From: Gallaecimonas sp. GXIMD4217
Lineage (GTDB): Bacteria; Pseudomonadota; Gammaproteobacteria; Enterobacterales; Gallaecimonadaceae
Assembly (NCBI RefSeq): GCF_038087665.1
Contig: NZ_CP149925.1
Span: 2,356,870-2,420,869, forward strand
Length of the DNA: 64,000 nucleotides
Direction of reading: 5' to 3'
Position numbers and translations under genes: made by a program. Of the stretch, positions 22,511 through 64,000 are shown piece by piece (within the stretch, counting starts at the first letter, position 1; each line of letters starts with the position of its first letter). Under the pieces are notes generated by a model that was given only the letters and a program-made list of their open reading frames with translations, had not been told where the DNA came from and made no database searches.

Positions 22511-22584
22511 TTAGTCAACAAACTTCCGGGCGTTACGGAACATCCGCATCCAGGGGCCGTCCTCGCCCCAGGTTTCCGGGTACC
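22511..22584 (-). pseudogene. purL 3' end remnant
   Basis: Read on the minus strand, it encodes [15 protein letters not shown], then RNARKFVD and a stop. It thus repeats the end of the intact PurL (which ends RKFVG) with one amino-acid change and only a few base changes. The match fades upstream of a shared GGTACC. The offset to the intact copy is 298 bases. Because the last codon differs (Asp instead of Gly), it looks like a diverged allele rather than a very recent tandem copy. Confidence 0.85.
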
Positions 22585-22638
22585 TGCAGGGTGATGGCTA
22601 GCCACGGTGCCCTGTTCGCTAGCGCCCCAAGAAAGAAA

Positions 22639-22757
22639 GCCCCGCATGCGCGGGGCGAAGCTCGAAGCCCAAGCGCCGCTTGGGCGCAGCTGAGCGCCGG
22701 TACACAGGAGGTACCGACCGGAAGGAACCACCATGGACGGTATCCCCTCCAAGCCAC
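22639..22757. repeat. Hairpin-rich non-coding element, diverged relative of the CRISPR-associated elements
   Basis: It contains successive inverted repeats: GCCCCGC/GCGGGGC, GCCCAAGC/GCTTGGGC and GGTAC/GTACC. It then has a segment CCGGAAGGAACCACCATGGA that resembles the CGGAAGGA-CCCACA-GGA segment of the two elements at 49051 and 49447. Similarity is by eye and limited to about 35 bases. Confidence 0.4.
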
Positions 22758-25800: not shown

Positions 25801-26675
25801 TCCACCTTCATCAGGATGTGGATGGGCTCCACATGGTACTGGTACTCGCGGCTCTGGGGGTCGGGGAAGAAGCGGCCGGCTGTGCTGCCTTCCATGACGG
25901 CGGCGTTGTCCTTGTAGGCGGAGAGCACATAGTCCGGATGCTGTTCATAGGTGTTCTTGATCATCTTGAACAGGGACTTGGGCTGCACCACGCCGTCTAT
26001 GGTCCAGTCGGCGTTGAAGATCTTGTGGCGGCAGTGCTCGGAGTTGGCCTGGGCGAACATGTAGAGTTCGATGTCGTTGGGGTTGCGGCCCAGGGCCTTG
26101 AAGTTCTCCACCAGGTAGTCGATTTCGTCCTCGGCCAGGGCCAGGCCCATGCTCTGGTTGGCCGCCACCAGGGCCTCGCGGCCTTGCCCCAGGATGTCCA
26201 CGGACCGCAGCGGCGCCGGCTCGGCCTTCTGGAACAGGGCCTCGGCGTCGTTGAGGTCGGCCAGCACCACGTCCACCATGCGGTCGTGGATCAGGCCCTT
26301 GAAGAGCTGCTGCTGCTCGGCGCTCAGCTCGCCGTCAACATGGTAGGCGATACCCCGCTCCAGGCGCTTGACCTGGGCCAGGCCGCAGTTGTGGGCGATG
26401 TCGGTGGCCTTGGAAGACCAGGGGGAGATGGTGCCCAGGCGCGGCACCACCAGGTACAGCTGGCCGCGCTTTTCCTCCTGGACGCTGCGTGGACCATAGG
26501 TCAGCAGTTTTTCGAGCCTGCCCAGCTCTTCGGAAGACAGGGCTTCCTTGAGATCGGCAAAGTGCATAAATTCAGCAGAGATCCCGTTAACCGGCAGTTC
26601 GGCTTCCCGACAGGCTGACAGCAGTTTTTCGAGACGAAACGGGGACAGGGCTGGGGCACCACGCAGGATTTCCAT
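22809..26675 (-). CDS. purL: Phosphoribosylformylglycinamidine synthase
   Basis: A 1,288-residue single-chain FGAM synthase (fourth step of purine synthesis), about the length of the E. coli enzyme. The PurS-like N-terminal domain starts [19 protein letters not shown]. Two AIRS-type ATP-binding halves follow ([29 protein letters not shown]). A C-terminal class I glutaminase has nucleophile Cys in [12 protein letters not shown] and the His/Glu pair in [10 protein letters not shown]. The start is clear and divergent from mltF. No riboswitch or PurR-like box was recognised in the 119-base gap. Confidence 0.97.
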
Positions 26676-41384: not shown

Positions 41385-42008
41385 TCAGTAATACCACTTC
41401 AGGGCCAGGTAGCCGTTGTCCACCGGCTCGTCCGGCAGCTCGAAGCGCTGCCAGCCGGCGCTCAGGTGCCAGTGGCTGCTGAGCCTCAGGGTCAGGCCCA
41501 GGCCGTAGTAGGGGTCGACATCCTCGTCGTCCCTTTTCAGGCCTGACACGCCGTCGCTGTCCCTGTCCGCCTGCCAGGCCCAGGCGCCACCCTGCACCCT
41601 CAACCACAGCCGGTCCGCCAGCGGCCATTGATAGGCCAGCCCCAGGTTGATGCCCTGGGCCGACATGGGGCCGATGGCGGCGATGGCCGCCTGGCTGGCC
41701 TGGGGAGCCTGGGCCCGGCCACGCACCTCGAGGTGGTAATCCCCCAGATCCTGGTAACCCAGCTCGGCCTGCCAGCCGTTGCCGAAGTGGTATTCCAGAT
41801 CCAGGCCCCAGCTCCAGTCATGGTTGTCCCAACCGAGGTTTTCCACTTCGATGCCGGCGGCCTCGGCCTGGCTGCGCCACTGGCCGGGCTGGCTTTCCAC
41901 CCGGCTGTAACCGCCCTGCAGGCCCAGCACCCAGTCGGCCCTGGCCCCCAGGCTGACCAGTGCCAGCAGCAGCAGGCCCTTGCGCCGCCACAGGGCCAGC
42001 AGCGCCAT
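41385..42008 (-). other. Possible nested gene: OmpA-like outer-membrane barrel protein
   Basis: The last 208 codons of the giant frame could stand alone. ATG 42008 opens MALLALWRRKGLLLLALVSL, a good signal peptide with cleavage after ARA, and the rest (VLGLQGGYSRVES, WSWGLDLEYHFGNGWQAELGY, GLGLTLRLSSHWHLSAGWQRF) is a complete small beta-barrel with an aromatic C-terminus. No ribosome binding site is visible before the ATG, so either it is fused or it is expressed by reinitiation. Confidence 0.4.
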
Positions 42009-47372: not shown

Positions 47373-47393
47373 ATCCTTCACCTTATTTCCGGG

Positions 47394-47418
47394 AGCGGCC
47401 GCCACAGCTGCGGCCGCT
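47394..47418. repeat. Strong inverted repeat between the tail-collar gene and the giant gene
   Basis: AGCGGCCGC and GCGGCCGCT arms with a seven-base loop. No T run follows on the minus strand, so it is a stable hairpin rather than a full terminator; it could lower read-through from the tail-collar gene or stabilise an mRNA end. Confidence 0.6.
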
Positions 47419-47434
47419 TTGCCATTGCAAGACA

Positions 47435-48043
47435 TTAACTGCGAGACGGGAAAATCCCCTGCAGCGCGATAACAAAGTACATGGCCAGGCTCGGCTGGAT
47501 ATTGTTGACCGACTGGCTGGCACCCGCGGTGCCGGTTTGGCCGGACAGCGCCGCCGTGCCGTTGGTACTCGCCATGAAGCTCTGCATGGTGGTGTTGCCT
47601 GCATCGGCATACGCCGTTGCAGCGCGTCCCCCGGACAGAACCGTCGCGGGCACCTTTCCCTCAGGGCTGTCGGAATTGCCGTTTTCACTGGAGGCCGGCG
47701 GCGATATCGTTGTGGTAGCCGTGATGGTTGCGCTAGCCCCCTGCAGCCCATGGTTGTGGATGGGCAGCTGGTTGAGGCTCAGGGTATTGGTTTCGCTCCC
47801 TTCCCTTTCCCCCCAACGCCAACGGCGCCGGCCTGGTCCGTCACCCGGGTGAACCGGCACCCGGCCCCGCAGATCCGGCAGGGCAAAGGTGGTACGGCCA
47901 TCGCCGCCATAGGTGGTGCCCAGCAGGGAAAACAGCGCCGTATTGCTTGCGATGGGCAACAGCTGGCCGTCACAAAGGGCGTAACCGCGGGGGGCGAAGT
48001 TAAAGCCCACCATCTTGATCTCGCCGATATAGGGTTCTGCCAT
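47435..48043 (-). CDS. Tail-collar (microcystin-dependent protein, MdpB-like) protein
   Basis: A 202-residue protein starting MAEPYIGEIKMVGFNFAPRG, with YALCDGQLLPIASNTALFSL, LLGTTYGGDGRTTFALPDLRGRVPVH and the conserved N-Q-L-P-I-H-N-H-G strand. It ends NNIQPSLAMYFVIALQGIFPSR. This is the phage tail-collar fold of the MdpB family, found on chromosomes beside a GNAT and a DUF6916 gene, as here. The biological role is unsettled. GGAGA precedes ATG 48043. It is divergent from the GNAT gene and lies directly upstream of the giant secreted protein on the same strand. Confidence 0.88.
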   Translation of the reverse strand: MAEPYIGEIKMVGFNFAPRGYALCDGQLLPIASNTALFSLLGTTYGGDGRTTFALPDLRGRVPVHPGDGPGRRRWRWGEREGSETNTLSLNQLPIHNHGLQGASATITATTTISPPASSENGNSDSPEGKVPATVLSGGRAATAYADAGNTTMQSFMASTNGTAALSGQTGTAGASQSVNNIQPSLAMYFVIALQGIFPSRS

Positions 48044-48623: not shown

Positions 48624-48903
48624 TGACGATCTCGTAGTCCGTGGGTGAATTGGGCACGCACAGCAGCGCCTGGCAACCGATGGCCGGATGGGAAAAGCGA
48701 TAGACCCCTTGGGGAACGGGCATGTCGGGATCGCCGCTAAGGCGGATGACAAAGGTAACAAAGGGGCTGCCTGGTTGGCTGCAGTCGACGACTTCGTCAA
48801 CCTGGAGGGTCAAGGTGGTGCCGGCGTCGTCGCTGACCGACACCTGGTCGCCTTCCATCTGCTTGAAGGCGCTGAATTCGAGCCGCACGAGCTGATCGTC
48901 CAT
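48559..48903 (-). CDS. DUF6916-like small protein
   Basis: A 114-residue soluble, beta-rich protein (MDDQLVRLEFSAFKQMEGDQ, then LQVDEVVDCSQPGSPFVTFV and VPQGVYRFSHPAIGCQALLC, ending with a Gln/Ser/Gly tail). The layout and the position next to tail-collar and GNAT genes match the DUF6916 family, whose function is unknown. AGGTGAT precedes the ATG. Convergent overlap with the GNAT gene is real coding on both strands, since both frames show family features. Confidence 0.7.
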   Translation of the reverse strand: MDDQLVRLEFSAFKQMEGDQVSVSDDAGTTLTLQVDEVVDCSQPGSPFVTFVIRLSGDPDMPVPQGVYRFSHPAIGCQALLCVPNSPTDYEIVISQARQGAAVPSAGTAHPFGS

Positions 48904-49050
48904 AAATCACCTGATGAAATCCCTTTCACTTGTGATTTCAAGGTAGTAGCAGAGCGCCAAGGATGCCAAAGCAAAGCTGAAAGTCGATGCCCTGAACAAC
49001 CGCAGGCACAAAAGAGTCCGAAGGACAAAGGTGACTCGTTTTTCGTCTGG

Positions 49051-49172
49051 TAAGCGGGGTCTTGGATAGCCGAGTCGGAAGGGATCCACAGGGAAGTATC
49101 ACTAGCCTCAAGCGGTTGGCGGCCACCCTCCCTGGCGGCCGTCGCTTCGCGACCGGCTAAAGCCGTCCAAAT
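49051..49172. repeat. Hairpin-rich element, copy abutting the leader-distal end of the CRISPR array
   Basis: Positions 49119-49172 match 49556-49609 (54 bases, one mismatch). Upstream, a GATAGCCGAGTCGGAAGG segment pairs with GATGACCGAGCCGGAAGG of the other copy. The matching 54 bases include hairpins GTCGC/GCGAC and CGGCT/AGCCG. Only six bases separate the end of the match from the first CRISPR repeat. No gene is credible between 48904 and 49178. Confidence 0.75.
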
Positions 49173-49178
49173 AGACGT

Positions 49179-52100
49179 CGGTTTAGCCCCGCGGACGCGG
49201 GGAACACTCGCGGAAATCCCGGAACGTTTTGCCGTTGATCGGTTTAGCCCCGCGGACGCGGGGAACACGTCACCGACACTACAACTGGGATGTGATCTGC
49301 CGGTTTAGCCCCGCGGACGCGGGGAACACAGCTGCTTCGTCGCTCGCTCAGTCTTCGCTCGCGGTTTAGCCCCGCGGACGCGGGGAACACATTGCCCTCA
49401 ATAGCCCGTTTTGACTAATGTCCGGTTTAGCCCCGCGGACGCGGGGTTGAGGGCAAAGAGAACATTGCGACCATAGGAGCAATGTTTGCCCGAAAGCGAG
49501 GCCCGGATGACCGAGCCGGAAGGAGCCCACAAGGATGTGTCACGACCAACGGTTTGCGGCCACCTTCCCTGGCGGCCGTCGCTTCGCGACCGGCTAAAGC
49601 CGTCCAAATTTGCTCCCGGCAAATTTGTAGCCCCGCGGACGCGGGGAACACCGTTGCCACGTTTCCCTGCCCATCCCATTTCACGGTTTAGCCCCGCGGA
49701 CGCGGGGAACACCCTGAGGACTGCCGCCAGGGCGTCCAGGGGGCCGGTTTAGCCCCGCGGACGCGGGGAACACGAGATATTGCAGGGCGACCTCCACATG
49801 GAGGACGGTTTAGCCCCGCGGACGCGGGGAACACTCAGGATGCCGAACCGGTGGCCGGCCCCCCCACGGTTTAGCCCCGCGGACGCGGGGAACACGACCA
49901 GGTCGCCTTTGCCGAGCGTGAAAGCGCCGGTTTAGCCCCGCGGACGCGGGGAACACGGATCCAACCACAGATTGCCCAGCTGGCGCGCCGGTTTAGCCCC
50001 GCGGACGCGGGGAACACCATTCGGATACCTCCGGGTAAAGTTGCCTCAGCGGTTTAGCCCCGCGGACGCGGGGAACACTGGGATGCGTCTGTGGTGGACC
50101 GGCCCGCAGTCGGTTTAGCCCCGCGGACGCGGGGAACACGGGCAAACCGGGCGACGTGTTGATCGCCGTACAGGTTTAGCCCCGCGGACGCGGGGAACAC
50201 AACTCATATATGATTTACTCTAAGCAAATCATCGGTTTAGCCCCGCGGACGCGGGGAACACTCGAAGTGGCCCTCGTAGGTCACCGGGTCCCACGGTTTA
50301 GCCCCGCGGACGCGGGGAACACTGCCGCTATTGACTAAAGCGTTCATTCGTGTGCGGTTTAGCCCCGCGGACGCGGGGAACACAAAATGGAAGCGACGAA
50401 GATTGGGAAGCGAAACGGTTTAGCCCCGCGGACGCGGGGAACACCCGCCAAGACGTGCCCGTTGGTCGCCACGGCGCGGTTTAGCCCCGCGGACGCGGGG
50501 AACACACACGTTAGTTCAATTGTTCAAGCTGGCATTGCGGTTTAGCCCCGCGGACGCGGGGAACACTCGGGCCGAAGCGTGATTGTAAACGCCGCAAACG
50601 GTTTAGCCCCGCGGACGCGGGGAACACTTTGCCGCTTGCGTCAGCAATGGCCAGAGATACGGTTTAGCCCCGCGGACGCGGGGAACACCGGCGCTTAACC
50701 CGGCTCTGAAACGTCATCCCCGGTTTAGCCCCGCGGACGCGGGGAACACTGGTATATCCCCCCTGGTGTTGATCCAGCTCCCGGTTTAGCCCCGCGGACG
50801 CGGGGAACACTCCCTAGAGCAGATCCACCGCCACGCAGCACGCGGTTTAGCCCCGCGGACGCGGGGAACACGGAATTTCTTCACCCCACAGGGAGACGGC
50901 GGACGGTTTAGCCCCGCGGACGCGGGGAACACGAAACGTGGTGATTTCCCGTTAACGGAAACACCGGTTTAGCCCCGCGGACGCGGGGAACACGCGAGGC
51001 GACCCGGCATCAGCAATTCAGCTTCCGGTTTAGCCCCGCGGACGCGGGGAACACTAGAGCGCATTCGTGGCGTCATGACCGACAGGCGGTTTAGCCCCGC
51101 GGACGCGGGGAACACGTGACCGGCGGTAGCAGGATGCCGCCGGCGCTCGGTTTAGCCCCGCGGACGCGGGGAACACGTGGAGTATCAAAAAATGCGTGCA
51201 ACAGTTGTACGGTTTAGCCCCGCGGACGCGGGGAACACAACCCCAAGGGCATCAGCCACCACAAGGTCACCGGTTTAGCCCCGCGGACGCGGGGAACACA
51301 TGCGCCGGCCCCGATCGGACTTCTGATATACCGGTTTAGCCCCGCGGACGCGGGGAACACATCAGAGGCGTAACTCCCCAGCAGGGTTGTACCGGTTTAG
51401 CCCCGCGGACGCGGGGAACACTCAACCCTAAAATCCGGATACCCTTTGTTTACCGGTTTAGCCCCGCGGACGCGGGGAACACGGCGGCGATCAGGTGAAG
51501 GCCGGGCGTCACACCGGTTTAGCCCCGCGGACGCGGGGAACACTTCCCATTACCATTATCTGATGTATGCCCAGACGGTTTAGCCCCGCGGACGCGGGGA
51601 ACACAATCTTAGTCAGTTCTGATTGATTGCGGCATACGGTTTAGCCCCGCGGACGCGGGGAACACCAGGTAACATTTGTCCATGCTGTGAGATCGCGCGG
51701 TTTAGCCCCGCGGACGCGGGGAACACGGCATCAGCCGCCGCATCACCGGCACGGCAATCGGTTTAGCCCCGCGGACGCGGGGAACACGTACCCAGGGCGC
51801 CGTAGTGGAGCTCCAGTTCCGGTTTAGCCCCGCGGACGCGGGGAACACGCCGGGATCACGCTACCCGCCCGTATGGTGTACGGTTTAGCCCCGCGGACGC
51901 GGGGAACACAGCAAAACCCACACCGCCGGCGGCCTGCACGTCGGTTTAGCCCCGCGGACGCGGGGAACACCGTTGCCCGTACCGCAGGCGGGGGCAACGA
52001 CACGGTTTAGCCCCGCGGACGCGGGGAACACGGAAACACACAGCGCCGGACCATGTGGACACCCGGTTTAGCCCCGCGGACGCGGGGAACACCAGATAAC

Positions 52101-54349
52101 CAACCAGGCTGGCCAGCTCACCCCCGGTTTAGCCCCGCGGACGCGGGGAACACCTGATCGCCCCCTGACCGATAAGGAGCGGCTGCGGTTTAGCCCCGCG
52201 GACGCGGGGAACACGCCATGATCCAGTTCGAGAACGGCATGCAGCCCGGTTTAGCCCCGCGGACGCGGGGAACACGACGAAGTCGCAAGACTCAAGGGCC
52301 AAGTGGTCGGTTTAGCCCCGCGGACGCGGGGAACACCAGACCAAGACGTCGTGGCTGACAACGTCGTGCGGTTTAGCCCCGCGGACGCGGGGAACACTCG
52401 GTGGCGTCCCGCTTGCGCAGGAGGTAGATCGGTTTAGCCCCGCGGACGCGGGGAACACTCTACGCCGAGACACGCGGCCAGGATCTTCATCGGTTTAGCC
52501 CCGCGGACGCGGGGAACACGCAGCGCTGTCAGTGAGGCGCTCCAAGGAAATCGGTTTAGCCCCGCGGACGCGGGGAACACGCCCAGCAACAGGGCGCCGC
52601 CCAACAGGGCCTCGGTTTAGCCCCGCGGACGCGGGGAACACGTTTTTTCTTAGTTTGTTTTGTGTATTAATGCCGGTTTAGCCCCGCGGACGCGGGGAAC
52701 ACCGCAGGTACACTCCACGCATTTTGGGATCTGCCGGTTTAGCCCCGCGGACGCGGGGAACACGCCCTCGAGGCCCTGGGCGCTTACCTGGAAGACGGTT
52801 TAGCCCCGCGGACGCGGGGAACACCCAGGTAACCACGCCGGCGTCATCGGGACGGCCGGTTTAGCCCCGCGGACGCGGGGAACACAGCATCGACCGCAGC
52901 GACTGCAGCGACTGGCGCGGTTTAGCCCCGCGGACGCGGGGAACACGGGAACCCATTCACAGAAACCGACAACCTCACCGGTTTAGCCCCGCGGACGCGG
53001 GGAACACGCTAGCGCGTTTTACCAATGTGTGCCAAACCGCGGTTTAGCCCCGCGGACGCGGGGAACACTTTTGCTATTCGCTGTGGCTTTCGGTTGTGGC
53101 CGGTTTAGCCCCGCGGACGCGGGGAACACCTAATAACAGCGATTTGGAAAGGCATTGCGAACGGTTTAGCCCCGCGGACGCGGGGAACACCAGCAGAATC
53201 CGGGCATCGAACAGGTCTACTACGGTTTAGCCCCGCGGACGCGGGGAACACTCGGACAGGTCGAAACCCAGTTCTTCGCGGAACGGTTTAGCCCCGCGGA
53301 CGCGGGGAACACCCTTTGAGCCGGACGCCAGCCTGCAGGGCCAACGGTTTAGCCCCGCGGACGCGGGGAACACGCCTCGGCCTGAATACGCCGACTCTGG
53401 TCATACGGTTTAGCCCCGCGGACGCGGGGAACACACCAAGGGCTTCTGGGTCAGCGCTGACATTCACGGTTTAGCCCCGCGGACGCGGGGAACACGTTTT
53501 CCACTGCTGCTCCCAGGCCTGCACATCCGGTTTAGCCCCGCGGACGCGGGGAACACCCCGCCGTGCACTGGAGGACTTCAAGTCCGTCCGGTTTAGCCCC
53601 GCGGACGCGGGGAACACCGGACGCTCAAGGCCGTATTGGGTCATATTGCCGGTTTAGCCCCGCGGACGCGGGGAACACGTTTTTCGCCTCGGTGACGGTC
53701 GCCGTTGTTCCGGTTTAGCCCCGCGGACGCGGGGAACACTATCTATAGCATTTTAGGGGTCGCTAGTGCCCCGGTTTAGCCCCGCGGACGCGGGGAACAC
53801 GCAGGGCCGTTCACGGTCAGAAGGAGTTGCCCCGGTTTAGCCCCGCGGACGCGGGGAACACTCAAAGACGACATCGCAGTTTCAGAAGACGGGCGGTTTA
53901 GCCCCGCGGACGCGGGGAACACTTCAAGGTATTCGCTTTGCGTACCGTTCGAATCGGTTTAGCCCCGCGGACGCGGGGAACACCACCGAGTTCCACACGG
54001 TAGGGATAAGGCCTGCGGTTTAGCCCCGCGGACGCGGGGAACACCCAGATGCAGTCGGGCCAGGATACCGGGTTTCTGGTTTAGCCCCGCGGACGCGGGG
54101 AACACCTGCTGCCCGAGGGTGACACCCTCATCGAGCCCGGTTTAGCCCCGCGGACGCGGGGAACACACCGATGCGCAGCTTGGGCGCTACAAGGTTGTCG
54201 GTTTAGCCCCGCGGACGCGGGGAACACGATCATGCTTTCGACTGCTCCTGGCCGCCCAACGGTTTAGCCCCGCGGACGCGGGGAACACATTTGCAAAGCC
54301 CCGGCAAGCCATTGGTAAGCCGGTTTAGCCCCGCGGACGCGGGGAACAC
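49179..54349 (-). CRISPR. Type I-E CRISPR array, 81 intact repeats plus two truncated ones, about 81 spacers
   Basis: 29-base repeat; on the plus strand it starts CGGTTTAGCCCC and ends GCGGGGAACAC, with an internal CCCCGCGGACGCGGGG palindrome, so on the minus strand it is the I-E form ending CTAAACCG, which would give the crRNA 5' handle. The period is 61 bases with 32-base spacers; the single exception seen is a 33-base spacer at 51177-51209. Intact repeats: four at 49179-49390 and 77 from 49684 to 54349. Two 24-base partial repeats (49423-49446, 49628-49651) flank an inserted element. The first base is changed in two repeats (A at 50172, T at 54077). Leader and cas genes lie to the right, so the newest spacers are at the 54-kb end. 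The repeat at the old end (49179) is undamaged. Confidence 0.98.
49447..49627. repeat. Hairpin-rich element interrupting the CRISPR array
   Basis: A 181-base non-CRISPR segment. To its left is the first 24 bases of a repeat (49423-49446); to its right the last 24 bases of a repeat (49628-49651). It contains inverted repeats AACATTGC/GCAATGTT (49461-49486), GTCGC/GCGAC, CGGCT/AGCCG and CAAATTTGC/GCAAATTTG (49605-49627), the last ending exactly at the right border. 54 bases are shared with the copy at 49119-49172. No open reading frame is convincing. Confidence 0.8.
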
Positions 54350-54442
54350 TCCAAATGCAGGCAGTTGTTTTTCAAACAAAAAATCTGCCTAACGAAATCT
54401 ACCGATTTTTTCCTGGTTGTTAAAGAGCCCAATTCACTGCAT
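54350..54442 (-). promoter_or_regulatory. CRISPR leader
   Basis: A+T-rich 93-base gap between cas2 and the first repeat, at the expected side for a leftward-read array. On the minus strand it runs GCTCTTTAACAA, then GGTAGATTTCGTTAGG, then T-rich sequence, ending TGCATTTGGA beside the repeat. It contains a long interrupted palindrome (54359-54390: AGGCAG...CTGCCT outside, TTGTTT...AAACAA inside). I see no clear IHF consensus. The CRISPR promoter should lie here, but I cannot fix its -10 box. Confidence 0.8.
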
Positions 54443-55658
<1,216 letters not shown>

Positions 55659-55694
55659 AGCGGCTCCCTTGCTATGTGGTGAAAAGGCGGCGGA

Positions 55695-56516
55695 TCAGAT
55701 CCGCCGTATCATCATCAGGCCGCAGCCAAAGGCCTTGGCCCGGCCTATGCCGTTGCATAGGTGTTCCAGCAGGGTGTCCGGCGCCTGTATATGGATCTCG
55801 CCGGCCAGCTCCACCGAGCTGAAGGCCGCCAGACGGTGCTTCTTCGGGATGCTGTGGCGCTGATAGCCAGCCACGCTCAGAGCACCGCCCGGAGCCTCCT
55901 CGGCTCCCAACCCTGGCAGGCGCTGTTGCCACCAGTCGGCCAGGGCCCGCTCGGCTTGGCTCTTAAGGGCCAGATCCAGGGTTTCACTGCGCCCCAGGGG
56001 GCGTTCCAGCGCCTGGCGGTGGCGCCCTTGATGGATGATCTCGCGCCAGCCGGCCAGCTCGACATCGGTGGCAAAGTCGAGCAGACGCATTCGCAGTTCG
56101 CCCTTCTGCCCGTCTTTGTCCAAGCCCTGGCCATCAAGCTGCTCGCGAAGCCAGCCCATTTGGGCATCCATCAGCACATCGTGGCGCTTGCCGTCCCGGC
56201 AGACCGTGGGGTTGACCCTGAGCCTGAATGCCAGGCGATCCCCAGGGTTCAGCCTGGGCGAGAAGGCCTTGATGTGGATCTCGAAGATCCCGGCGTGATC
56301 CCTTGGCGGCGTGCGCGACAGCACATAGAACAGGGGCTCGCCGCTGGGTGCCTGGTAGCCGTCCCCCTGCTCTTGGCGATACAGGAAATGACGCTCGTTG
56401 TCATCAAACAGGCGCCAAAGCAGCTGGTGGCTGCCGTAAGCCCCGTCCTTGAGAGCTTCCAGCAGGGCGCGCCGGGCCTGTGGGCTCTGGTTCAAGCGGA
56501 TCTTGGAAAGGTACAT
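55695..56516 (-). CDS. cas6e: CRISPR RNA endonuclease Cas6e (CasE/Cse3)
   Basis: A 273-residue repeat-processing ribonuclease and Cascade subunit. MYLSKIRLN is the family N-terminus, and the catalytic His30 lies in AYGSHQLLWRLF, aligning with His20 of E. coli CasE. The C-terminal Gly-rich loop is CNGIGRAKAFGCGLMMI. It is somewhat longer than the E. coli protein (199 residues), with extra sequence in the middle (about 90-220). ATG 56516 is one base after the cas5e stop and follows GGGAGG. Confidence 0.95.
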   Translation of the reverse strand: MYLSKIRLNQSPQARRALLEALKDGAYGSHQLLWRLFDDNERHFLYRQEQGDGYQAPSGEPLFYVLSRTPPRDHAGIFEIHIKAFSPRLNPGDRLAFRLRVNPTVCRDGKRHDVLMDAQMGWLREQLDGQGLDKDGQKGELRMRLLDFATDVELAGWREIIHQGRHRQALERPLGRSETLDLALKSQAERALADWWQQRLPGLGAEEAPGGALSVAGYQRHSIPKKHRLAAFSSVELAGEIHIQAPDTLLEHLCNGIGRAKAFGCGLMMIRRI

Positions 56517-56517
56517 A

Positions 56518-57255
56518 TCACGCCTCCCTGATCGTGAGTTCATGCTGCTGGCGCTGGCCGAATTGCCAGGGCCGGCGGCTCAGGGGCTCATCCCATACGC
56601 CAAGGGTCTGCACGGCGTCGCTTTCGCCCAGCGCCTGCGGGCTGCCCTGCCAGTAGTAAGTGACCAGCTCTCCCAGCCCCAGCCAGCGTTTGTCTTCCTC
56701 GGGGCTTCCCAGTAGTGGCGGAAACTCGCTATCCAGAGCCTGCCTGAGGGTGCCGTCCGCCACTATGCGCGGCGCCATGGGCAACGCCAGGGGGCAGGCC
56801 TTGCGGCCAAGATAGGGGACGAAGCCCGGACGCAGCAGGGCTTCACGCAGCCGCTCCAGGGTGGGCGCCGACTCGGACTGGCGCCACAGGGCGACCACCC
56901 AGAGGCCGCCGGTGCGGTAGTCCCGGCTGGACAGCACGGTGTTGAGCTTGTGCCTGGGCCTGGCCAGCTCGTCGGCGCGGGTGAACAGCCGGCGTTTCTT
57001 GTCCTCGGAGGGAACCTGAGCGGTGTGGTAGTCCCTGAGCAAATCACCCGGGTCATATTGCTTCACCGCCACCGCCAGGCCGTCGCGCAGGGCGGCCTGG
57101 CGTTCAGCGTCTTCCCTGGGAATGCCGAGAGCGCAGGCCACCAGGCCAAGCACGGCGGCGCGGCCGGGGTGCAGGGCGGTGGGCCTGTCGCCGCCCACCG
57201 CCGCCTCACCCCAGCTTGCCATGGGGCCATAGAGGCGAAAAATAAGATAATCCAT
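56518..57255 (-). CDS. cas5e: Cascade subunit Cas5e (CasD)
   Basis: A 245-residue Cascade subunit that holds the 5' handle of the crRNA. MDYLIFRLYGPMASWGEAAVGGDRPTALHPGRAAVLGLVACALG is the conserved RAMP-type N-terminus; the middle has NTVLSSRDYRTGGLWVVAL and RPGFVPYLGRKACPLALPMAPR, and the C-terminus EPLSRRPWQFGQRQQHELTI. Eight bases separate it from cas7e upstream; AGGGGG lies before the ATG. Confidence 0.95.
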   Translation of the reverse strand: MDYLIFRLYGPMASWGEAAVGGDRPTALHPGRAAVLGLVACALGIPREDAERQAALRDGLAVAVKQYDPGDLLRDYHTAQVPSEDKKRRLFTRADELARPRHKLNTVLSSRDYRTGGLWVVALWRQSESAPTLERLREALLRPGFVPYLGRKACPLALPMAPRIVADGTLRQALDSEFPPLLGSPEEDKRWLGLGELVTYYWQGSPQALGESDAVQTLGVWDEPLSRRPWQFGQRQQHELTIREA

Positions 57256-57263
57256 GGGGCCCC

Positions 57264-58298
57264 CTAGTCGGCGATGAAGGCCTTGAGTTGCTCGAAGCTG
57301 CCTTCACCGGTGATGGCGTTGATGGTTGCCCTGGCATCGGCGCAGGGGCCGTAGACCTTGTCGAAGTTTTCCACCTGGCGCTCCAGGCGCGTTATGGCCT
57401 CGCCGGCCTGATCCTCTCCCCATACCGGCTTGAGGAAGGCCACCGACAGGGAGCGGGGCTGCTGATCGCCCTTCTCCGCCAGCACATAGGAGGCATAGGC
57501 GCGGGAGGCAAAGCTGTTCTGCTTGCCCCTGGGAGACACCTTGACGGCCGCCTCCACCAGGGCGGCAATGGCCTTGTTGGCCAGAGCCAGATCACCGCCG
57601 AGGTTCTGCACCAATTGCTCCTTGTCGATGCAGACATAGCTGTAGAAGAGGGCAGCGGCGAAACCCGCTTCGCCGATATGGCCGGCCCCCAGATCCTCGT
57701 CGCCGCGGTTGAGGTCGTCGACGGCGGTGAAGTAGTCATCCTCCACCGCCACGCCGTGGACGCTGATGGCATGGGCCACCTGGCAGGCGGCCTCGACGTT
57801 GAAGTCGGGACTGGCCGCCAGCATGCGGCCAAACAGGGCGATGTCGACGGCTGCGGCCCTGCTGCGAAGGCGCAGCAGTTCTTCCTGCTCGGGGGCCCGC
57901 CCTTCACGGCTCAGGGTATCGAGCAGCTGCCAAACCGCCTGCCATTCCGAGGGGCTGATATGGGCGAGCTGTTCAATCTCCAGGGAGTCCTTCTTGTTCT
58001 TGCCAAAAACGCCGGCGATGGCCGTGGCCCATTCCTTGGCCTGCTTCTCGGGCACCCCTTCCTGGGTCAACTTGCCATAGACTTCCACGCCCAGCCGCTT
58101 GGTGCGGGTACCCAGGCTGCCTTCCAGGGCGTCCTGGAAGAGTTCAGACACCCGCCAGTTGCGCTTCAGGCTCTGGGAGCTGACCCTGAGCCGCTCCACC
58201 CCGCCCATGCGGGCGGTCTTGGGCCGGCCAAGGTCGTCCCGGTTGAGGTTGGAAGGGGGGTAGGAAGTCAGCAGGTGCAGTTGGATAAATTTGCTCAT
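57264..58298 (-). CDS. cas7e: Cascade backbone subunit Cas7e (CasC)
   Basis: A 344-residue backbone protein, present in six copies per Cascade in E. coli. MSKFIQLHLLTSYPPSNLNRDDLGRPKTA and RLRVSSQSLKRNWRVSELF are diagnostic, and the C-terminal half has GAGHIGEAGFAAALFYSYVC and SFASRAYASYVLAEKGDQQPRSL. AAGGAG precedes the ATG 11 bases after cse2. Its length is typical (363 in E. coli). Confidence 0.97.
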   Translation of the reverse strand: MSKFIQLHLLTSYPPSNLNRDDLGRPKTARMGGVERLRVSSQSLKRNWRVSELFQDALEGSLGTRTKRLGVEVYGKLTQEGVPEKQAKEWATAIAGVFGKNKKDSLEIEQLAHISPSEWQAVWQLLDTLSREGRAPEQEELLRLRSRAAAVDIALFGRMLAASPDFNVEAACQVAHAISVHGVAVEDDYFTAVDDLNRGDEDLGAGHIGEAGFAAALFYSYVCIDKEQLVQNLGGDLALANKAIAALVEAAVKVSPRGKQNSFASRAYASYVLAEKGDQQPRSLSVAFLKPVWGEDQAGEAITRLERQVENFDKVYGPCADARATINAITGEGSFEQLKAFIAD

Positions 58299-58309
58299 GT
58301 CCGTTCTCC

Positions 58310-58924
58310 TTAGTTGTCCTTGCTGGCGGCCTTGTCGGCGGCCTGGTAGTAATCCATGGCCCAGCGCAGGGCGATGCGCTTGTCGGCCCTACGGGGGGAT
58401 AGCTGGTGGTGCTCGGCAAACCAGCTCAGGGTGTCGGCGGCCAGGCTCTGGGGATTGCAGCTGCCGCCCAATAACTTCACCAGCCGACGCAGGCGGCGGA
58501 AAAAGTCCTCCGGGCTCCTGGCGTTTTGCAGCTGCTGGAAGCGAAGCTCGCTGACCCTGGGCTTGTCTGTCTTGGGATCGATCCTGCCCAGGCTGGTGGC
58601 GAAGCTCTGCTCCGGGCTCTCCGCGGGCAGCTGGCGCACATGGCTGAGGCTGGCGGCTATGGTGGCCCAGGCCAGGGGCGACCAGGACGCCCTGTTCCTG
58701 GCGCGCTCGGGTAGCTTCAACCAGAGCGCCCTGAAACCCTGGGTCAACAGGGCCCCTTCGGGTCCTTCGGCCCGCTTCAGCTCGGCCCGGTAGAGGGTCG
58801 GGGCCGGCTTCAGCTTCAATGCCTCAAGCTCTGCCGGCGGCAGCGTCATGGCCTGCCACCAGCGCAGCAGGCTGTCGCTGCCCTCAAATGAGTAGCGGCG
58901 TTCCTTGTGTTCCTTGTCTGCCAT
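58310..58924 (-). CDS. cse2: Cascade small subunit Cse2 (CasB, Cas11e)
   Basis: A 204-residue, mostly helical protein that forms the belly of Cascade. YSFEGSDSLLRWWQAMTLPPAE near the start and SELRFQQLQNARSPEDFFRRLRRLVKLLG in the middle are the conserved parts; AEHHQLSPRRADKRIALRWAMDYY closes it. The ATG overlaps the cse1 stop by one base (TGATG) with GGAGG upstream, consistent with coupled translation. Confidence 0.95.
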   Translation of the reverse strand: MADKEHKERRYSFEGSDSLLRWWQAMTLPPAELEALKLKPAPTLYRAELKRAEGPEGALLTQGFRALWLKLPERARNRASWSPLAWATIAASLSHVRQLPAESPEQSFATSLGRIDPKTDKPRVSELRFQQLQNARSPEDFFRRLRRLVKLLGGSCNPQSLAADTLSWFAEHHQLSPRRADKRIALRWAMDYYQAADKAASKDN

Positions 58925-60510
58925 CAGGCTTCCTCCGTGCTGGGTAAGGGGTGACTGTCTTTGAAGGCTTTGATCGCCTTGGCGCCGCGCAGCCAGCCGG
59001 TGAGCCGGCGTCTAGCGGAAATCTTCTGGTGCATGCTGCGGTCCGCCGGGCATTCGCCCAGGGCGAATTCGTCGAACAGATCCAGGGCGGTGGCGGTCAG
59101 GGCCTGCAGCCAGCGCCAGGCGCCCTCCGACGGTAGGCGCTCCGCGCCGCAGGTCAGCAGGCTTGCCACGGCCTGGAAGAAGGCTGCCTGGGTTCGCTGC
59201 CAAAAAGCGAGTTCGATATGGCTGAAGTCTCCCTTGGCCTCGGCGGGGCGCTCAAAAAGGGCGGCTTTGACCTGGCTGCGGCAGTGAAAGAGCACCTCCT
59301 GAGCCAGGGATTGCACCACCTTGATCTCCGTTAACAGGGCATCGGCGCTTTCCGGGGGCAGGCTTACCAGGGGCAGCTCTGTGCTGTACCAGCCCCTGGC
59401 CTTCATGTTGTCCATATCAAAGCCGAAGGCCCACAGCCTGGGATATTCCCCCCAATCGAAGTCGAAGAAGTCCCGTTTGCTGCTGTGGAAATCCATGACC
59501 ACCCTGGCGGGCAGGTTGCCCTCCCCTCTGTCCTCGAAGGCCAGGGCATGCCACTGCTTGTATTGGATGCCGCCGGGCTGGCCCTTGGTGGAGAGGTGAT
59601 CCTCCTCCGGCTTCTTGGGGTTGAAGCGGTAATGGGTCAGGGGGTGGTGCCAGGTGCCGGCATAGTTGTTGCCGTAGTTCTGGGTCAGGTAATGGAGGCA
59701 GAGGCGCTCGCTGTCATCCCCACCCAGGCTGCAACGACCCTGCTTTTCCTCGAACAGCAGGCGGATGCGCCTGGGCATGGCCCAGTACATATGCAGAGGA
59801 TGCACATCCTGCTGGTAGATCTCGCTGCCCTTTTTCTTACTGTCTTTAGTCGCCCCCAGCCAGGGGAAGACATCGGCGCTGTGCAGGTCCGGCTCCTCAT
59901 AGGGCCATTTATCCCTGCTTATCACATTGAGCCAAAGCCGCTGCCAGAGGCCGGCTTCGGGATCCCGGGGCAGCACCAGGGTGGTCAGGGGGCCACCGCC
60001 CCTAAGCCCGGTACGATGCCCCTGACCGCCGGAGGGAGCGTTGATCTGCAGGGTGAACAGCGCCAGGGCTGCCATGGCGGGGGACAGCTGGGTCACCTCG
60101 TCACGCTTGATGAAGTGATCGGTGTTGAGCTTGAGGGTGTTGCCGCCGGGAGCCTCGATCAAGAGTCCGGACACGGGCGCCGGCTTGGTGCCTGCCAGGC
60201 TGTCGTAGTCCTGCATAAAGCGCGGCCCTTCGCCTTCCAGCTCGAAGGCATGGGCGGCCTTGGCGAAGGCTTCTCCCAAATCGCCTTGCACCGGCGGCTT
60301 GCAATAGAGCGCTTCCCAGGCGTATTTATCCTCAGGCGCGAAGCAAGTCTGCAGCAGGCCGATGGCGAACTGGTAGGCGGCACCCTGAAAATCGGCCCTG
60401 GGCAGGGCGAAATCCACCACCTCGGGGGATGCCATGGCGGCGAGGGGCAAGGTGCGCTCGCTGCCGTCCCTAAGGCGAAAGAGAAGCCAGGAATCTGTGA
60501 TCAGGTTCAT
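58924..60510 (-). CDS. cse1: Cascade large subunit Cse1 (CasA, Cas8e)
   Basis: A 528-residue subunit that reads the PAM and recruits Cas3. MNLITDSWLLFRLRDGSE is the family start; FIKRDEVTQLSPAMAALALFTLQINAPSGGQGHRTGLRGGGPL holds the conserved L1/glycine-rich region that contacts DNA, and KDSKKKGSEIYQQDVHPLHMYWAMPRRIRL follows. The C-terminal four-helix bundle begins near 400. AAGGAGG precedes the ATG; its ATGA overlaps the cas3 stop by four bases. Confidence 0.96.
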   Translation of the reverse strand: MNLITDSWLLFRLRDGSERTLPLAAMASPEVVDFALPRADFQGAAYQFAIGLLQTCFAPEDKYAWEALYCKPPVQGDLGEAFAKAAHAFELEGEGPRFMQDYDSLAGTKPAPVSGLLIEAPGGNTLKLNTDHFIKRDEVTQLSPAMAALALFTLQINAPSGGQGHRTGLRGGGPLTTLVLPRDPEAGLWQRLWLNVISRDKWPYEEPDLHSADVFPWLGATKDSKKKGSEIYQQDVHPLHMYWAMPRRIRLLFEEKQGRCSLGGDDSERLCLHYLTQNYGNNYAGTWHHPLTHYRFNPKKPEEDHLSTKGQPGGIQYKQWHALAFEDRGEGNLPARVVMDFHSSKRDFFDFDWGEYPRLWAFGFDMDNMKARGWYSTELPLVSLPPESADALLTEIKVVQSLAQEVLFHCRSQVKAALFERPAEAKGDFSHIELAFWQRTQAAFFQAVASLLTCGAERLPSEGAWRWLQALTATALDLFDEFALGECPADRSMHQKISARRRLTGWLRGAKAIKAFKDSHPLPSTEEA

Positions 60511-63233
60511 TCAACCTCCTTGTGTCTCGTGAAGACCCCTAGGGTCGGGGAATAACCGAACTGCTCGTCCTCCTGTGCCAGCCAGGGCTGGAGATAGCGG
60601 GCTTGAGAGTAGCGGGCCTGGATGGCCTCGAAGGCTTGGATGTCTTCGCCTTTCAGGGGCGCCAGGCGCTCGGCGAACTTCTTGCGGCCCAGTTTGAGGA
60701 TGCTGTTTTGCACCGGCTGCGGCTCGCCTTCGGCCCAGAGGCAGAGGCCACCGGCCTGGCTCCGCCGCAGCAGCAGCACGGGCAGGATTTCTATGTCCGA
60801 GTGACGGGTGCTGATCTCGATGTCGTCGTCATGCCAGGCGGTATTGCTTTCCTGGCTGTAGCCCAGCGGCCACTGTATGTATTGGTTCCTGGCCTTGGCT
60901 GCCTTGCCCCTCTCCTCGGCGTAATGCGCATCCTCCTTGTCCCGCAGGGCTTGGGGCATGCGCTGGTAGGCATCCTCGCCGTAGACGGCTTCGATGAGCT
61001 CCCTGGCCTTACCCGGCATCCAGATCCCGCCCAGTTCACGCAGCGCCTGCATGCCGAGCCAGAGTCGGCCCGGGGAGCGATAGACGGCCTCGGTGTGGGG
61101 CATGGTGGCACCGAGCCAATCCGCCTGGGGCTCCTCCTGCCAGGGGGGCACCAGCACATACAGCAGGGGCCTGGCCCTGGCATCCCTTATGCCGGGGCGG
61201 TAATGGCCGTCGCCGTCCCTGGTGTGGCGGTGGAGGCGGCCGGCCCGCTGGATCAGATCGTCTATGGGGCAGAGATCGGAAATCATCAGATCCGCGTCGG
61301 CATCGATGCTCTCCTGAAACACCTGGGTGGCGATAAGCACCTGTCCCTTTCGCTGCTCCCCACCGGACCCCTTGCCGAAGCGCGACAGTACCTGCTCCTC
61401 GATGCCCTTGCGGTCCTTGAGAGCGAAACGGCTGTGAAAGAGGATGGGCTCAGGGCCGCCCTCCAGCCGCCCTACCAGGGCCTGGTAGGCCTTGAGGGCG
61501 TCGTCTACCGAGTTACGGATCCAGACCACGCATTGGCCCTTGGCCCTGGCCTCGGTTATGGCCTGGAGGCAACTTTCCTCGCTGGCGAGAAAGTCGACCG
61601 GCAGGTGGCGGCTGACTTCCTTGCGACTGGCCAGGGGCGTTTCCTGCACGCCGTCCGCCAGGCAGACCCGGGTGGCCAGGGGGAAATGCGTTGATTCCGG
61701 CAGCTGCGGCGTCACGCCACCAGCCTGTTGCCAGATCTGGCACAGCCGGGCGCGCTGGCGCTTCGACAGGGTGGCGGTCAGCAGAATGGCACTGCCGCCC
61801 TGGTGTAGATGCACCCGCAGCAGATCTTCCAATAGCTCGAACATGAAGGCATCGGCGGCGTGGATCTCGTCGAACAGCAGCACCTTGCGATTGAGCCCCA
61901 AGAGCCGCAAGGGCTGGTGCTTGCGCGGCAATACCGCCATCAGGGCCTGATCTATGGTGCCGACCCCCACAGGCGCCAGCAGCGCCTTCTTGCGGGAGTC
62001 CGCCAGCCAGGCATTGCAATAGGCGGAGGCGGTGCCGTCATCCCGGTCGTAGCCGGCCTCGTCGGCCCCGGGCACGGCCAGGGCCTCCTTGAAGGCCTCG
62101 TTCATCTCCCTGGCGCCATGGGCCAGCACTATGCTGGCCCGGCCACCGTCTAGGGCCAGCATCTGGCGGTAGTGGCCGGCCACCCGGGAGAACATGGCGT
62201 TGGAGGTAGCCATGGTGGGCAGACCGAAATAGAAACCGTCGGCCCGGCCCGCCGCCAGCAACCTGTGGGCCAGGGCCAGGGCCGCCTCCGTCTTGCCGGC
62301 GCCGGTGACATCCTCGAGGATGAAGAGCTGCGGCCCCTCCCCCAGGGGGACCGACTCGGCCCAGCCCTGAAGTGGGGTGGGCCGAAAGCCGTAATGCTCC
62401 TGGATGGATCCGAAGGGCTGGACGCTGACGGGCTTGGCAAGATCGGTGGCGGCCAGGGCCCGGGCGGCTATGTCCTTGGCCTGGGGCCAGTACTCGGCCA
62501 ACGAAAAGCCCCCGGCCCGGTAGTGGAAGAAGGCACTGTCGGAGCCCACCCAGTCGCTGAGGATGGCCAGGCCAGAGAGGTGCCAGCTCAGTTGCCGGAG
62601 CCTGGCCAACCAGTGGCGGTCCGTCATTTTTTCCGGCGGCCAGGACACGGCGAAGAGTCTTGCCAGATCGGCAATAAAGTGCGTGGCTGCATCCAGATCT
62701 TGTTCCCGGCAATAGCGGCCGAGCTCGGCCCGTTTGCCATGGGCTATGGGATAGCCGTGATGGCCGAACACCGTATCCAGCAGGCAGTTGAGGCTGTCGA
62801 GCAGCGGCGTCGGGCGGCTCAGGTCGGCATCACCCAGGCCAAGCTCAGCGCCGCGGAGCCGGCGGCCCCGGGTGGCCATAAGCCAGAAATACTGGCCCAG
62901 CATGTCGTGGCGGGCCCGTCTGGCGTCATAGGCCTGCTCCGGTCTGTGGCTGACCAGGGGGGTACCTGGGAAGGACTTCAGGGCCTGGAAGGCCGATGAG
63001 AACTTGCCGAGATCGTGGAGGGCCAGGGCAAAGGTGAAGATGGCGCGCAGCTCACCCGGGGATAGTTCGAGGAACTGGGCCAGGGAGCGGGTCAGGGGCC
63101 TGTCGTCCGCCAGCAGCTGCCAGCCCACCGCCGCCACGTCCAGGCAGTGGTAGGGCAGCAGGTGGTAGGCGTCGCCTTGGTGGCCTTCCTGCTGCTGGGC
63201 CTTGCCCCAGTAGTGGAAATAGCTGGCTGTCAT
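60507..63233 (-). CDS. cas3: CRISPR-associated nuclease-helicase Cas3 (type I-E)
   Basis: A 908-residue single-chain Cas3. The N-terminal HD nuclease carries ALALHDLGKFSSAFQ (His73/Asp74). The SF2 helicase has Walker A DVTGAGKTEAALALAHRLL near residue 311, a DEIH box (LLFDEIHAADAFMFELLEDLL) near 454, SAILLTATLS and, in the second RecA domain, IDDLIQRAGRLHRH. A C-terminal domain follows. The frame is open upstream to 63677 through sequence unlike any Cas3; ATG 63233 (MTASYFHYWGKA) follows AAGGAG and fits the family start. It is the first gene of the cas operon, so its promoter lies in 63234-63328. Confidence 0.97.
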   Translation of the reverse strand: MTASYFHYWGKAQQQEGHQGDAYHLLPYHCLDVAAVGWQLLADDRPLTRSLAQFLELSPGELRAIFTFALALHDLGKFSSAFQALKSFPGTPLVSHRPEQAYDARRARHDMLGQYFWLMATRGRRLRGAELGLGDADLSRPTPLLDSLNCLLDTVFGHHGYPIAHGKRAELGRYCREQDLDAATHFIADLARLFAVSWPPEKMTDRHWLARLRQLSWHLSGLAILSDWVGSDSAFFHYRAGGFSLAEYWPQAKDIAARALAATDLAKPVSVQPFGSIQEHYGFRPTPLQGWAESVPLGEGPQLFILEDVTGAGKTEAALALAHRLLAAGRADGFYFGLPTMATSNAMFSRVAGHYRQMLALDGGRASIVLAHGAREMNEAFKEALAVPGADEAGYDRDDGTASAYCNAWLADSRKKALLAPVGVGTIDQALMAVLPRKHQPLRLLGLNRKVLLFDEIHAADAFMFELLEDLLRVHLHQGGSAILLTATLSKRQRARLCQIWQQAGGVTPQLPESTHFPLATRVCLADGVQETPLASRKEVSRHLPVDFLASEESCLQAITEARAKGQCVVWIRNSVDDALKAYQALVGRLEGGPEPILFHSRFALKDRKGIEEQVLSRFGKGSGGEQRKGQVLIATQVFQESIDADADLMISDLCPIDDLIQRAGRLHRHTRDGDGHYRPGIRDARARPLLYVLVPPWQEEPQADWLGATMPHTEAVYRSPGRLWLGMQALRELGGIWMPGKARELIEAVYGEDAYQRMPQALRDKEDAHYAEERGKAAKARNQYIQWPLGYSQESNTAWHDDDIEISTRHSDIEILPVLLLRRSQAGGLCLWAEGEPQPVQNSILKLGRKKFAERLAPLKGEDIQAFEAIQARYSQARYLQPWLAQEDEQFGYSPTLGVFTRHKEVE

Positions 63234-63295
63234 ATCAGGCTCCTTGCCGCTGTGTTTTTGATCACTTTCCCTGCCCTTTGCCGCTTTCACAATGC

Positions 63296-63309
63296 TGTGC
63301 ATTTGCACA
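63296..63309. promoter_or_regulatory. Palindrome in the cas3 upstream region, candidate operator
   Basis: TGTGC-ATTT-GCACA is a perfect inverted repeat between cas3 and the WYL-type regulator gene. It is the best candidate binding site for that regulator or another cas repressor; no clear -10/-35 pair was recognised in the same 95-base gap. Confidence 0.4.
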
Positions 63310-63328
63310 TGTCGCCTTTGTTGACAGA

Positions 63329-64000
63329 TCAGGCACCGAACAGCCAGGGCTTGATCTGGTCGGCATTGGCAAGGATCAGCTGCTGGGCGGCGGGGTTGCC
63401 GTCGAGCATCTTGACGTTGACCTGCATCTCCAGGAGCAGGTACTGGGCCAGGGCGGCACGTGTTGCTAGGCGCAGCTCGCCATCGGCCATGCCGTAGTCG
63501 TGGGCCAGGGCCTCCTGCTGGGCGGGGCTGAGCCTGGGATCGGGCTTGAGAAGCAGCTCCACCTGGGTTTGCCAGGCCCTGTCGTCGCCGGCGCCGTGGG
63601 GCGAGGCCTCCAGCAGCTCGGGCGTGCCACGGAAGCGGCTCAGCACGAAGTCGCGGTAGTCCTGGTGTTTTTCGCACCAGGCCCGCAGGTGCCAGCGCAG
63701 GCCAGTGTTGACGAAGGTGTGGGGCACGATGATCCGCCCTTCCCTGCTGGGGTTGGTGACGGACACATAGTCCACCTCCAGGCGGCGCTGCTCGCGTATG
63801 GCCCTGAGCAAGGGGCGGACAAGGGTGGGGGATACGTTACGGGGCGGGTGTTGAAGGGCCTGGTGAGGCAACTGGTAACGGGGCTTTTCCGGCAGTGGAT
63901 GACCGCTTTGGCCGGTCATCCAGTTGAGGTATTCGGCCACGTCGCCGCTGATCTGGCGGCAGCGGAAGCCGCCGGTCACCAGGTGGGCCTTGGCGGAGTC
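63329..64000 (-). CDS. WYL-domain transcriptional regulator (3' part; N-terminus outside window)
   Basis: The last 223 codons of a leftward gene; the frame is still open at 64000, so the N-terminal winged-helix region is largely missing. The WYL core is readable: VRPLLRAIREQRRLEVDYVSVTNP, then GRIIVPHTFVNTGLRWHLRAWCEKHQDYRDFVLSRF. The usual W-Y-L residues are replaced by W-H-L. The C-terminal extension (ELRLATRAALAQYLLLEMQV) is of the WCX type. WYL regulators often sit beside CRISPR-Cas and other defence operons and sense ligands such as nucleotides. Regulation of the cas operon is inferred from adjacency. Confidence 0.85.
   Translation of the reverse strand, partial: DSAKAHLVTGGFRCRQISGDVAEYLNWMTGQSGHPLPEKPRYQLPHQALQHPPRNVSPTLVRPLLRAIREQRRLEVDYVSVTNPSREGRIIVPHTFVNTGLRWHLRAWCEKHQDYRDFVLSRFRGTPELLEASPHGAGDDRAWQTQVELLLKPDPRLSPAQQEALAHDYGMADGELRLATRAALAQYLLLEMQVNVKMLDGNPAAQQLILANADQIKPWLFGA

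Follow-up and report, generated by a model that had tools for sequence, protein, structure and literature searches.

How did 181 nt of unrelated sequence come to lie inside a repeat of a type I-E CRISPR array, and what does such an interruption mean for the processing of that array? The question is raised by a 64,000-nt stretch of the Gallaecimonas sp. GXIMD4217 genome, referred to here as the window.

The array and its interrupted repeat

The locus was assigned to type I-E, as cas1e, cas2e, cas3, cse1, cse2 and cas5-7 adjoin an array whose 29-nt repeat reads GTGTTCCCCGCGTCCGCGGGGCTAAACCG in the crRNA sense. Since the cas genes lie to the right of the array on the minus strand, transcription is taken to run from right to left, with the low-coordinate end as the trailer. 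The features of the locus are the following:

49179..54349, minus strand: type I-E CRISPR array, with 81 intact repeats and two half repeats; its trailer is at the low-coordinate end
54350..54442, minus strand: A+T-rich, leader-like stretch between the array and cas2, recognised by eye, its orientation inferred from the repeat and the cas genes
54443..63677, minus strand: cas2e, cas1e, cas6e, cas5e, cas7e, cse2, cse1 and cas3 (NCBIfam matches)
49628..49651, minus strand: leader-side partial repeat, GTGTTCCCCGCGTCCGCGGGGCTA, without AACCG
49447..49627, minus strand: inserted element, module R followed by module L in the crRNA sense; the sole full-length copy found in the genome
49423..49446, minus strand: trailer-side partial repeat, CCCCGCGTCCGCGGGGCTAAACCG, without GTGTT; the hairpin and the expected Cas6e site are kept

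The array comprises 83 units, namely 81 repeats with at most one mismatch (79 of them perfect) and the two halves, and the interrupted unit is the only one with a start-to-start interval outside 57-64 nt. The spacer at 51148-51210 has 33 nt rather than 32, and the repeats at 50172 and 54077 deviate at the last base of the crRNA-sense repeat. Among five genomes of the genus, this repeat was found, allowing up to three mismatches, only in the insert-bearing one; in G004, the sole other genome with Cas1e, the repeat is another one and the array is cut off by the contig end. Elsewhere in the window, positions 41385-47435 encode a protein of 2016 residues with matches to a tandem-95 repeat and a choice-of-anchor U domain.

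On the plus strand, 49423-49446 (CGGTTTAGCCCCGCGGACGCGGGG) are the first 24 of the 29 repeat bases and 49628-49651 (TAGCCCCGCGGACGCGGGGAACAC) the last 24. The initial annotation had described two 24-nt stretches of repeat, overlapping by 19 nt, with 181 nt of other sequence between them, and had placed one end of the insert at the palindrome CAAATTTGC...GCAAATTTG; both descriptions are confirmed. In the crRNA sense the order is GTGTTCCCCGCGTCCGCGGGGCTA, element, CCCCGCGTCCGCGGGGCTAAACCG, within the repeat between the fourth and fifth spacers counted from the trailer end. The insert starts with CAAATTTG, directly after the GCTA of the repeat, and ends in TCAA, directly before its CCCC. When 49423-49651 was folded as RNA, partial repeats included, a z score of -4.79 was obtained against 200 shuffles. 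A consensus scan of 48900-49800 revealed neither terminator nor promoter, and a phage or plasmid origin of the insert was discarded, as it gave no match at E<=0.01.

A dispersed family of hairpin modules

Two modules, each with many copies, make up the insert:

49550..49627, minus strand: module R, diverged, with three hairpins, the first being CAAATTTGC...GCAAATTTG; aligned over its length with 74 R copies
49447..49541, minus strand: module L in sense orientation, the L query as written being antisense to it; aligned with 38 L copies

Profile matches place both in their families, with E values of 8e-8 and 2.7e-4 for R (two different models) and of 2.4e-8 and 1.5e-6 for L. In the alignments of the 38 L and 74 R copies with the insert, compared without a shuffle control, many paired columns vary on both sides with the pairing retained. 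A single occurrence in the genome had been named beforehand as a reason to abandon the idea of a mobile element, and here the outcome is divided: in the single 3.35-Mb contig the full 181 nt occurs once, next to an 83% partial copy at the trailer of the array, seven more partial matches with E<0.02 and three that are weaker, while the modules are present many times. Across the five genus genomes, matches at E<=0.01 number 27, 21, 7, 5 and 8 for L (with 40 of 42 candidates scored for the L count of G001) and 15, 27, 17, 18 and 5 for R, and a profile search of 100 regions around family matches returned 104 L and 94 R matches. Outside the genus, R-like matches at E<=1e-6 were found in six of 143 genomes.

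The conservation of L runs to TC(A/G)CCC, with the three C bases present in 49, 50 and 47 of 52 copies, and then falls towards background, while R copies begin at GCGAC (n=81). In sequence terms, the borders of the family coincide with those of the insert, which is a family element from edge to edge. The family edges (GCGA at the R end and CCC at the L end) are similar to the GCTA and CCCC present in the repeat, so that the length of the duplication can be given only as a range, 11-19 nt, instead of the exact 19 nt.

Another copy is found within the window itself:

22661..22741, plus strand: further L copy, abutting a CCCCGCG hairpin, downstream of purL

Around it, some 65 bp of the 3′ end of purL (22821-22890; the gene spans 22809-26675) is copied at 22523-22590, 300 bp downstream of the original, and a terminator-like hairpin, the L element and a CCCCGCG...CGGGG hairpin lie between the two copies. 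Targeting of hairpins as a general rule for L junctions was rejected, as a stem of at least 5 was present in 12 of 54 junctions against 22% of shuffles and is, thus, not enriched. In the insert-bearing genome, four loci (L210, L212, L222 and L227) are L/R mosaics with near-identical blocks beside 5S and 23S rRNA genes, and these may perhaps have spread by conversion between rRNA operons.

For most of the family, long flanking duplicates are not observed: 123 of 136 clusters have no exact duplicate of at least 12 nt within 100 nt, a length that mismatched flank pairs reach in 1.2%. The other 13 are not a count of insertion scars, as they include duplications arising from tandem tRNA genes and neighbouring family copies (L215, L221, L211, L243 and L290). 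Near tRNA and tmRNA genes, eight of the 19 distinct L or R modules lying at most 700 nt downstream abut a copy of 9-27 nt of the 3′ end of the gene (Arg 21 nt; Ser 15 and 9; tmRNA 10 and 14; Ala 20, 27 and 10), while 9 nt is reached in 0.6% of 4200 trials with shuffled flanks; the remaining 11 have no duplicate of at least 9 nt. These 19 modules derive from 21 rows, two of which repeat one tRNA-Ala module of G001, and three loci (L309, L310 and L313) joined the set because of the RtT matches there. The copy of the gene is offset by exactly 7 nt past the edge of the L model in the five L cases and by 0-2 nt in the three R cases. All eight modules with a duplicate have the orientation seen in the array (L reversed or R forward), which says little by itself because 16 of all 19 share it regardless of the duplicate.

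Inspection by eye added a degenerate tRNA-Ala case in G000 (L221) and, in G004 (L298), an L copy followed by a tRNA-Ala fragment. The tRNA-Ala copies (four genomes, two of them by eye) and the tmRNA copies (two genomes) may each go back to one ancestral event; with such sharing between genomes, about four or five independent events would be represented. At L246, a stretch lying between tRNA-Asn genes has the 3′ end of tRNA-Asn copied at its own end, with no recognised L or R module.

This arrangement recalls the rtT/RttR repeats of the E. coli tyrT locus (RtT, RF00391; tyrV-rttR in K-12), where 178-nt units downstream of an RNA gene each end in a copy of the 3′ end of tRNA-Tyr; three copies of AATCCTTCCCCCACCACCA lie there 178 nt apart, at +156, +334 and +512. 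The number of rtT copies is variable, one report listing them as a 175-bp VNTR (PMC2658671). In the genus, RtT adjoins tRNA-Glu and ends in the 3′ end of this gene at five of six inspected loci, the sixth (14.7 bits) not being at a tRNA; the match in G002 (45.6 bits) exceeds the gathering threshold of 45 bits and the other genus matches fall below it. Three of these RtT copies are weakly matched by the R profile on the same strand (E of 0.0085, 0.011 and 0.054 in a six-sequence search). The RtT covariance model found no match at E<=10 in the insert-bearing genome, with 150 of 162 first-look candidates scored, nor at E<=5 at the insert locus, and the L and R profiles gave none at E<=10 against the E. 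coli rttR locus. The architecture typical of RtT, beside an RNA gene and ending in a duplicate, is nevertheless that of the eight modules described above. Kinship of R with RtT is, consequently, likely, and the architecture is the same. What sets the insert apart from RtT is that it is a composite and that its “gene” target is a CRISPR repeat.

Origin of the insert

The nearest relative of the insert, judged by alignment, is the element that forms the trailer of the same array:

49005..49172, minus strand: trailer copy of the R+L composite, truncated and diverged, without the first R hairpin

The suggestion that the segment could be an old, leader-like part of the array holds to the extent that a related copy does lie at an array edge, but this edge is the trailer; the cas-proximal end of the array is at 54350. 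The right halves of the insert and the trailer copy are identical at 58 of 60 positions (49113-49172), a stretch for which the rest of the genome contains only short, chance-level pieces (E<=10). The left halves are far more diverged, with an alignment score of 50 against a maximum of 37 in 500 shuffles. It is likely that one of the two derives from the lineage of the other, with later recombination or conversion. Beyond the trailer copy, no remnant of a CRISPR repeat rose above shuffles, and the likeness of the R half to the CRISPR repeat is weak and at shuffle level (score 19, with 95% of shuffles at 20).

A parallel was found when other type I-E arrays were surveyed. The survey covered the best 80 of 331 type I-E neighbourhoods, 78 of them with an array, and repeats lacking their head were sought in the window and 77 of these loci (3027 repeat tails, with one consensus per locus; L088 and L110, which have no array, and L051, whose consensus lacks the head, were left out). 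Such repeats stand beside other sequence in the window and in Pseudoalteromonas sp. OOF1S-7 (L057). As the scan flagged only two of the seven OOF1S-7 units, it misses variant repeats. Two further candidates, L056 and L070, were rejected, for they carry one-base insertions of C instead. Repeat tails are missing in the window, L044 (twice), L053, L085, L101 and L114, several of them at array ends; near position 17068 of L085 (reverse strand), a repeat-like hybrid begins as an antisense repeat and ends as a sense repeat.

In OOF1S-7, the trailer of the array consists of 7.1 copies of a tandem 133-bp unit, each with a 110-nt element abutting a copy of the CRISPR repeat without GTGTT. At all seven junctions the element ends in CGGTCTTGCTTCGC (...GCTTCGC) and the repeat copy starts with CCCCG, so that, by sequence comparison, these copies are truncated at exactly the same point as the trailer-side partial repeat of the window. 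The same contig has, some 17 kb away, another array that also ends in a copy of the element (L327); the hairpin that follows this copy is only repeat-like, and it matches the array no better than shuffled sequences do. Ten weaker copies are found elsewhere in this genome. At five of nine inspected loci (5S rRNA twice, tRNA-Met, tRNA-Phe and one unassigned), 18-42 nt of the junction sequence recur on the other side of the element, lengths that tandem units increase in some cases; among the four without a duplicate, the junction of L332 contains this 5S piece too, and that locus ends just past the element. At tRNA-Met and tRNA-Phe, the duplicated part is the 5′ part of the gene, read antisense, and any rule would therefore concern gene edges and a CC start, not the 3′ ends of RNAs. 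Since the L profile gave no match to the OOF1S-7 element at E<=10, this case is a parallel, not a proven relative. Within L057 (15918-16993), the repeat hairpins of the array and of the trailer units vary in their stems with pairing mostly kept (CCCCGTATGCACGGGG, CCCCGCAGGTGCGGGG, CCCCGCAGGCGCGGTG and others).

The explanation that we regard as probable is that an R+L composite was inserted into a type I-E repeat with a duplication of 11-19 nt, and that the array is still processed, with the element carried as an outsized spacer. One repeat would have been entered by a composite of palindromic modules that carries no gene and belongs to a dispersed family of rtT-like architecture, its movement presumably depending on an activity supplied in trans. 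At its 3′ edge (crRNA sense) the element would have been joined to the first bases of the repeat hairpin, CCCC, with a duplication of 11-19 nt of repeat sequence (no more than CCCCGCGTCCGCGGGGCTA), as in some family copies at tRNA and tmRNA genes. Cleavage of the pre-crRNA would continue at both flanks of the element, which would occupy the position of a spacer in the array, and both neighbouring crRNAs would keep their hairpin and handle. The length of the duplicate is variable (9-27 nt at tRNA and tmRNA copies and 18-42 nt in Pseudoalteromonas), unlike what a classical transposase produces.

The initial annotation had also considered that two neighbouring repeats each lost exactly five bases, along with the spacer between them, unrelated DNA taking their place. 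Although this would yield the same 229 nt, it needs two matched losses and element borders that fall there by chance, and it leaves unexplained the same truncation in all seven Pseudoalteromonas units; we consider it highly improbable. Insertion with duplication is favoured over such losses because the family borders are those of the insert, because duplicates flank eight of 19 modules near RNA genes and because the OOF1S-7 copies are truncated at the same point. To this extent, the earlier view of a dispersed-family element inside the repeat stands. Slightly less improbable, but still very unlikely, is an old array boundary, in which the insert would be the former trailer of a leader-side array and the last five repeats an older array fused to it. 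A sixth repeat ending in a trailer-type element does resemble the present trailer, and degenerate terminal repeats are common in CRISPR arrays; against this, the intact repeats on both sides of the insert are identical, the five missing bases are symmetrical and, after the L edge, the repeat fragment starts at CCCC, as at other junctions.

A more serious competitor, to which we nonetheless assign a rather low probability, is local copying, where the insert would be a duplicate from the lineage of the trailer element. Template switching or gene conversion at the repeat hairpin, and not an insertion activity, would have carried it over a few hundred bases. The close identity of the right halves agrees with this, as does module order: L+R- is seen in one of 62 adjacent module pairs, only at the array locus (the R half of the trailer was detected by BLAST and alignment, not by the profile used for this count). 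Additionally, the first 10 nt of the insert (49447-49456, TTGAGGGCAA) are the reverse complement of bases 49392-49401 of the adjacent spacer, which may be due to chance or be a trace such as template switching could leave. However, the left halves are too diverged for a simple copy of recent date, the first R hairpin is present in the insert and lacking in the trailer copy, and the insert ends at the general borders of the family.

Processing of the array and relation to known elements

Under insertion with duplication, cutting on both sides of the element is expected, since the duplicated stretch contains the complete hairpin as well as the expected Cas6e site. The interruption had been thought to disable processing of its unit, and this part of the earlier view is not supported: in the crRNA sense, both halves keep the complete CCCCGCG-TC-CGCGGGG hairpin with the expected site, and the exact position of the Cas6e cut in type I-E repeats, as we take it to be, is retained in both. 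Processing at the interrupted repeat is, thus, probably not disabled. The crRNA upstream of the insert retains its 3′ hairpin and the downstream crRNA its CTAAACCG handle, and the neighbouring crRNAs should be intact, the insert behaving like an oversized spacer that would itself carry the wrong handle (CTACAAAT). Cas6e cuts at specific repeat positions (PMC4499155). The array is, from its repeats, predicted to be still working, with the element as a giant spacer, and the mutual pairing of the half repeats, seen when the whole 229 nt is folded alone, could hinder cutting.

Several known systems share traits with the insert. With REP/BIME sequences it shares dispersed, many-copy hairpin modules arranged in mosaics; to our knowledge, target duplication is not a feature of REPs. 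The Y1 transposase domain (PF01797) is found in two of the five genus genomes, the insert-bearing one having two matches (51.6 and 25.8 bits, with a cut-off of 23), and gave no match in three of the five, all of them carrying the repeats and one of them, G001, having the most R matches. Regarding transposon-type elements (MITEs), the edges GCGAC and ...TCRCCC are, by eye, not inverted repeats of each other, and the duplications near tRNA and tmRNA genes and in OOF1S-7 do not have the fixed length expected of such insertions.

Within CRISPR loci, IS6110, which sits in a direct repeat of the DR locus of Mycobacterium tuberculosis, is likewise a mobile element inside a CRISPR repeat, and insertion into a repeat is therefore not new in itself. 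IS6110 is a complete insertion sequence that encodes its own transposase and duplicates only a few bases of its target, whereas the duplication in our case spans the hairpin. In Haloquadratum walsbyi HBSQ001, a MITE is placed in a CRISPR spacer (PMC3119063); this is also a small, non-autonomous element in an array but, as described there, it lies within a spacer, and the insert studied here lies within a repeat and duplicates its hairpin. CRISPR_2 of Sulfolobus islandicus LAL14/1 contains a pING1-like pseudo-spacer of about 2 kb (PMC3718332), similarly a foreign stretch in the position of a spacer, although that source places it between complete repeats and gives it five ORFs. Elements inside arrays and rtT repeats at tRNA genes are, thus, already known; neither an rtT-like element inside a CRISPR repeat nor an insertion there that duplicates the hairpin was found described in the literature searched, outside which most subscription literature lies.

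A broader proposal, which we advance tentatively and hold to be somewhat doubtful, is that rtT-like elements, whose other sites are tRNA, tmRNA and 5S genes, also insert regularly into CRISPR repeats. These elements would join at a run of C (the CCCC after GTGTT) and duplicate the hairpin, and the array would still be processed, with the element as a giant spacer or a tandem trailer. For repeats at tRNA edges, such as rtT, which are old observations, we know of no accepted way of spreading. As repeats and spacers have fixed lengths in CRISPR loci, an insertion into an array allows a close view of both junction and duplication. The insert illustrates that an array need not be obviously broken when one of its repeats is interrupted. 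Elements of this kind are carried by some CRISPR trailers, and the tandem in Pseudoalteromonas suggests that the CRISPR-repeat case is not a single accident. If the proposal is true, CRISPR arrays and tRNA genes would be two hosts of one insertion mechanism.
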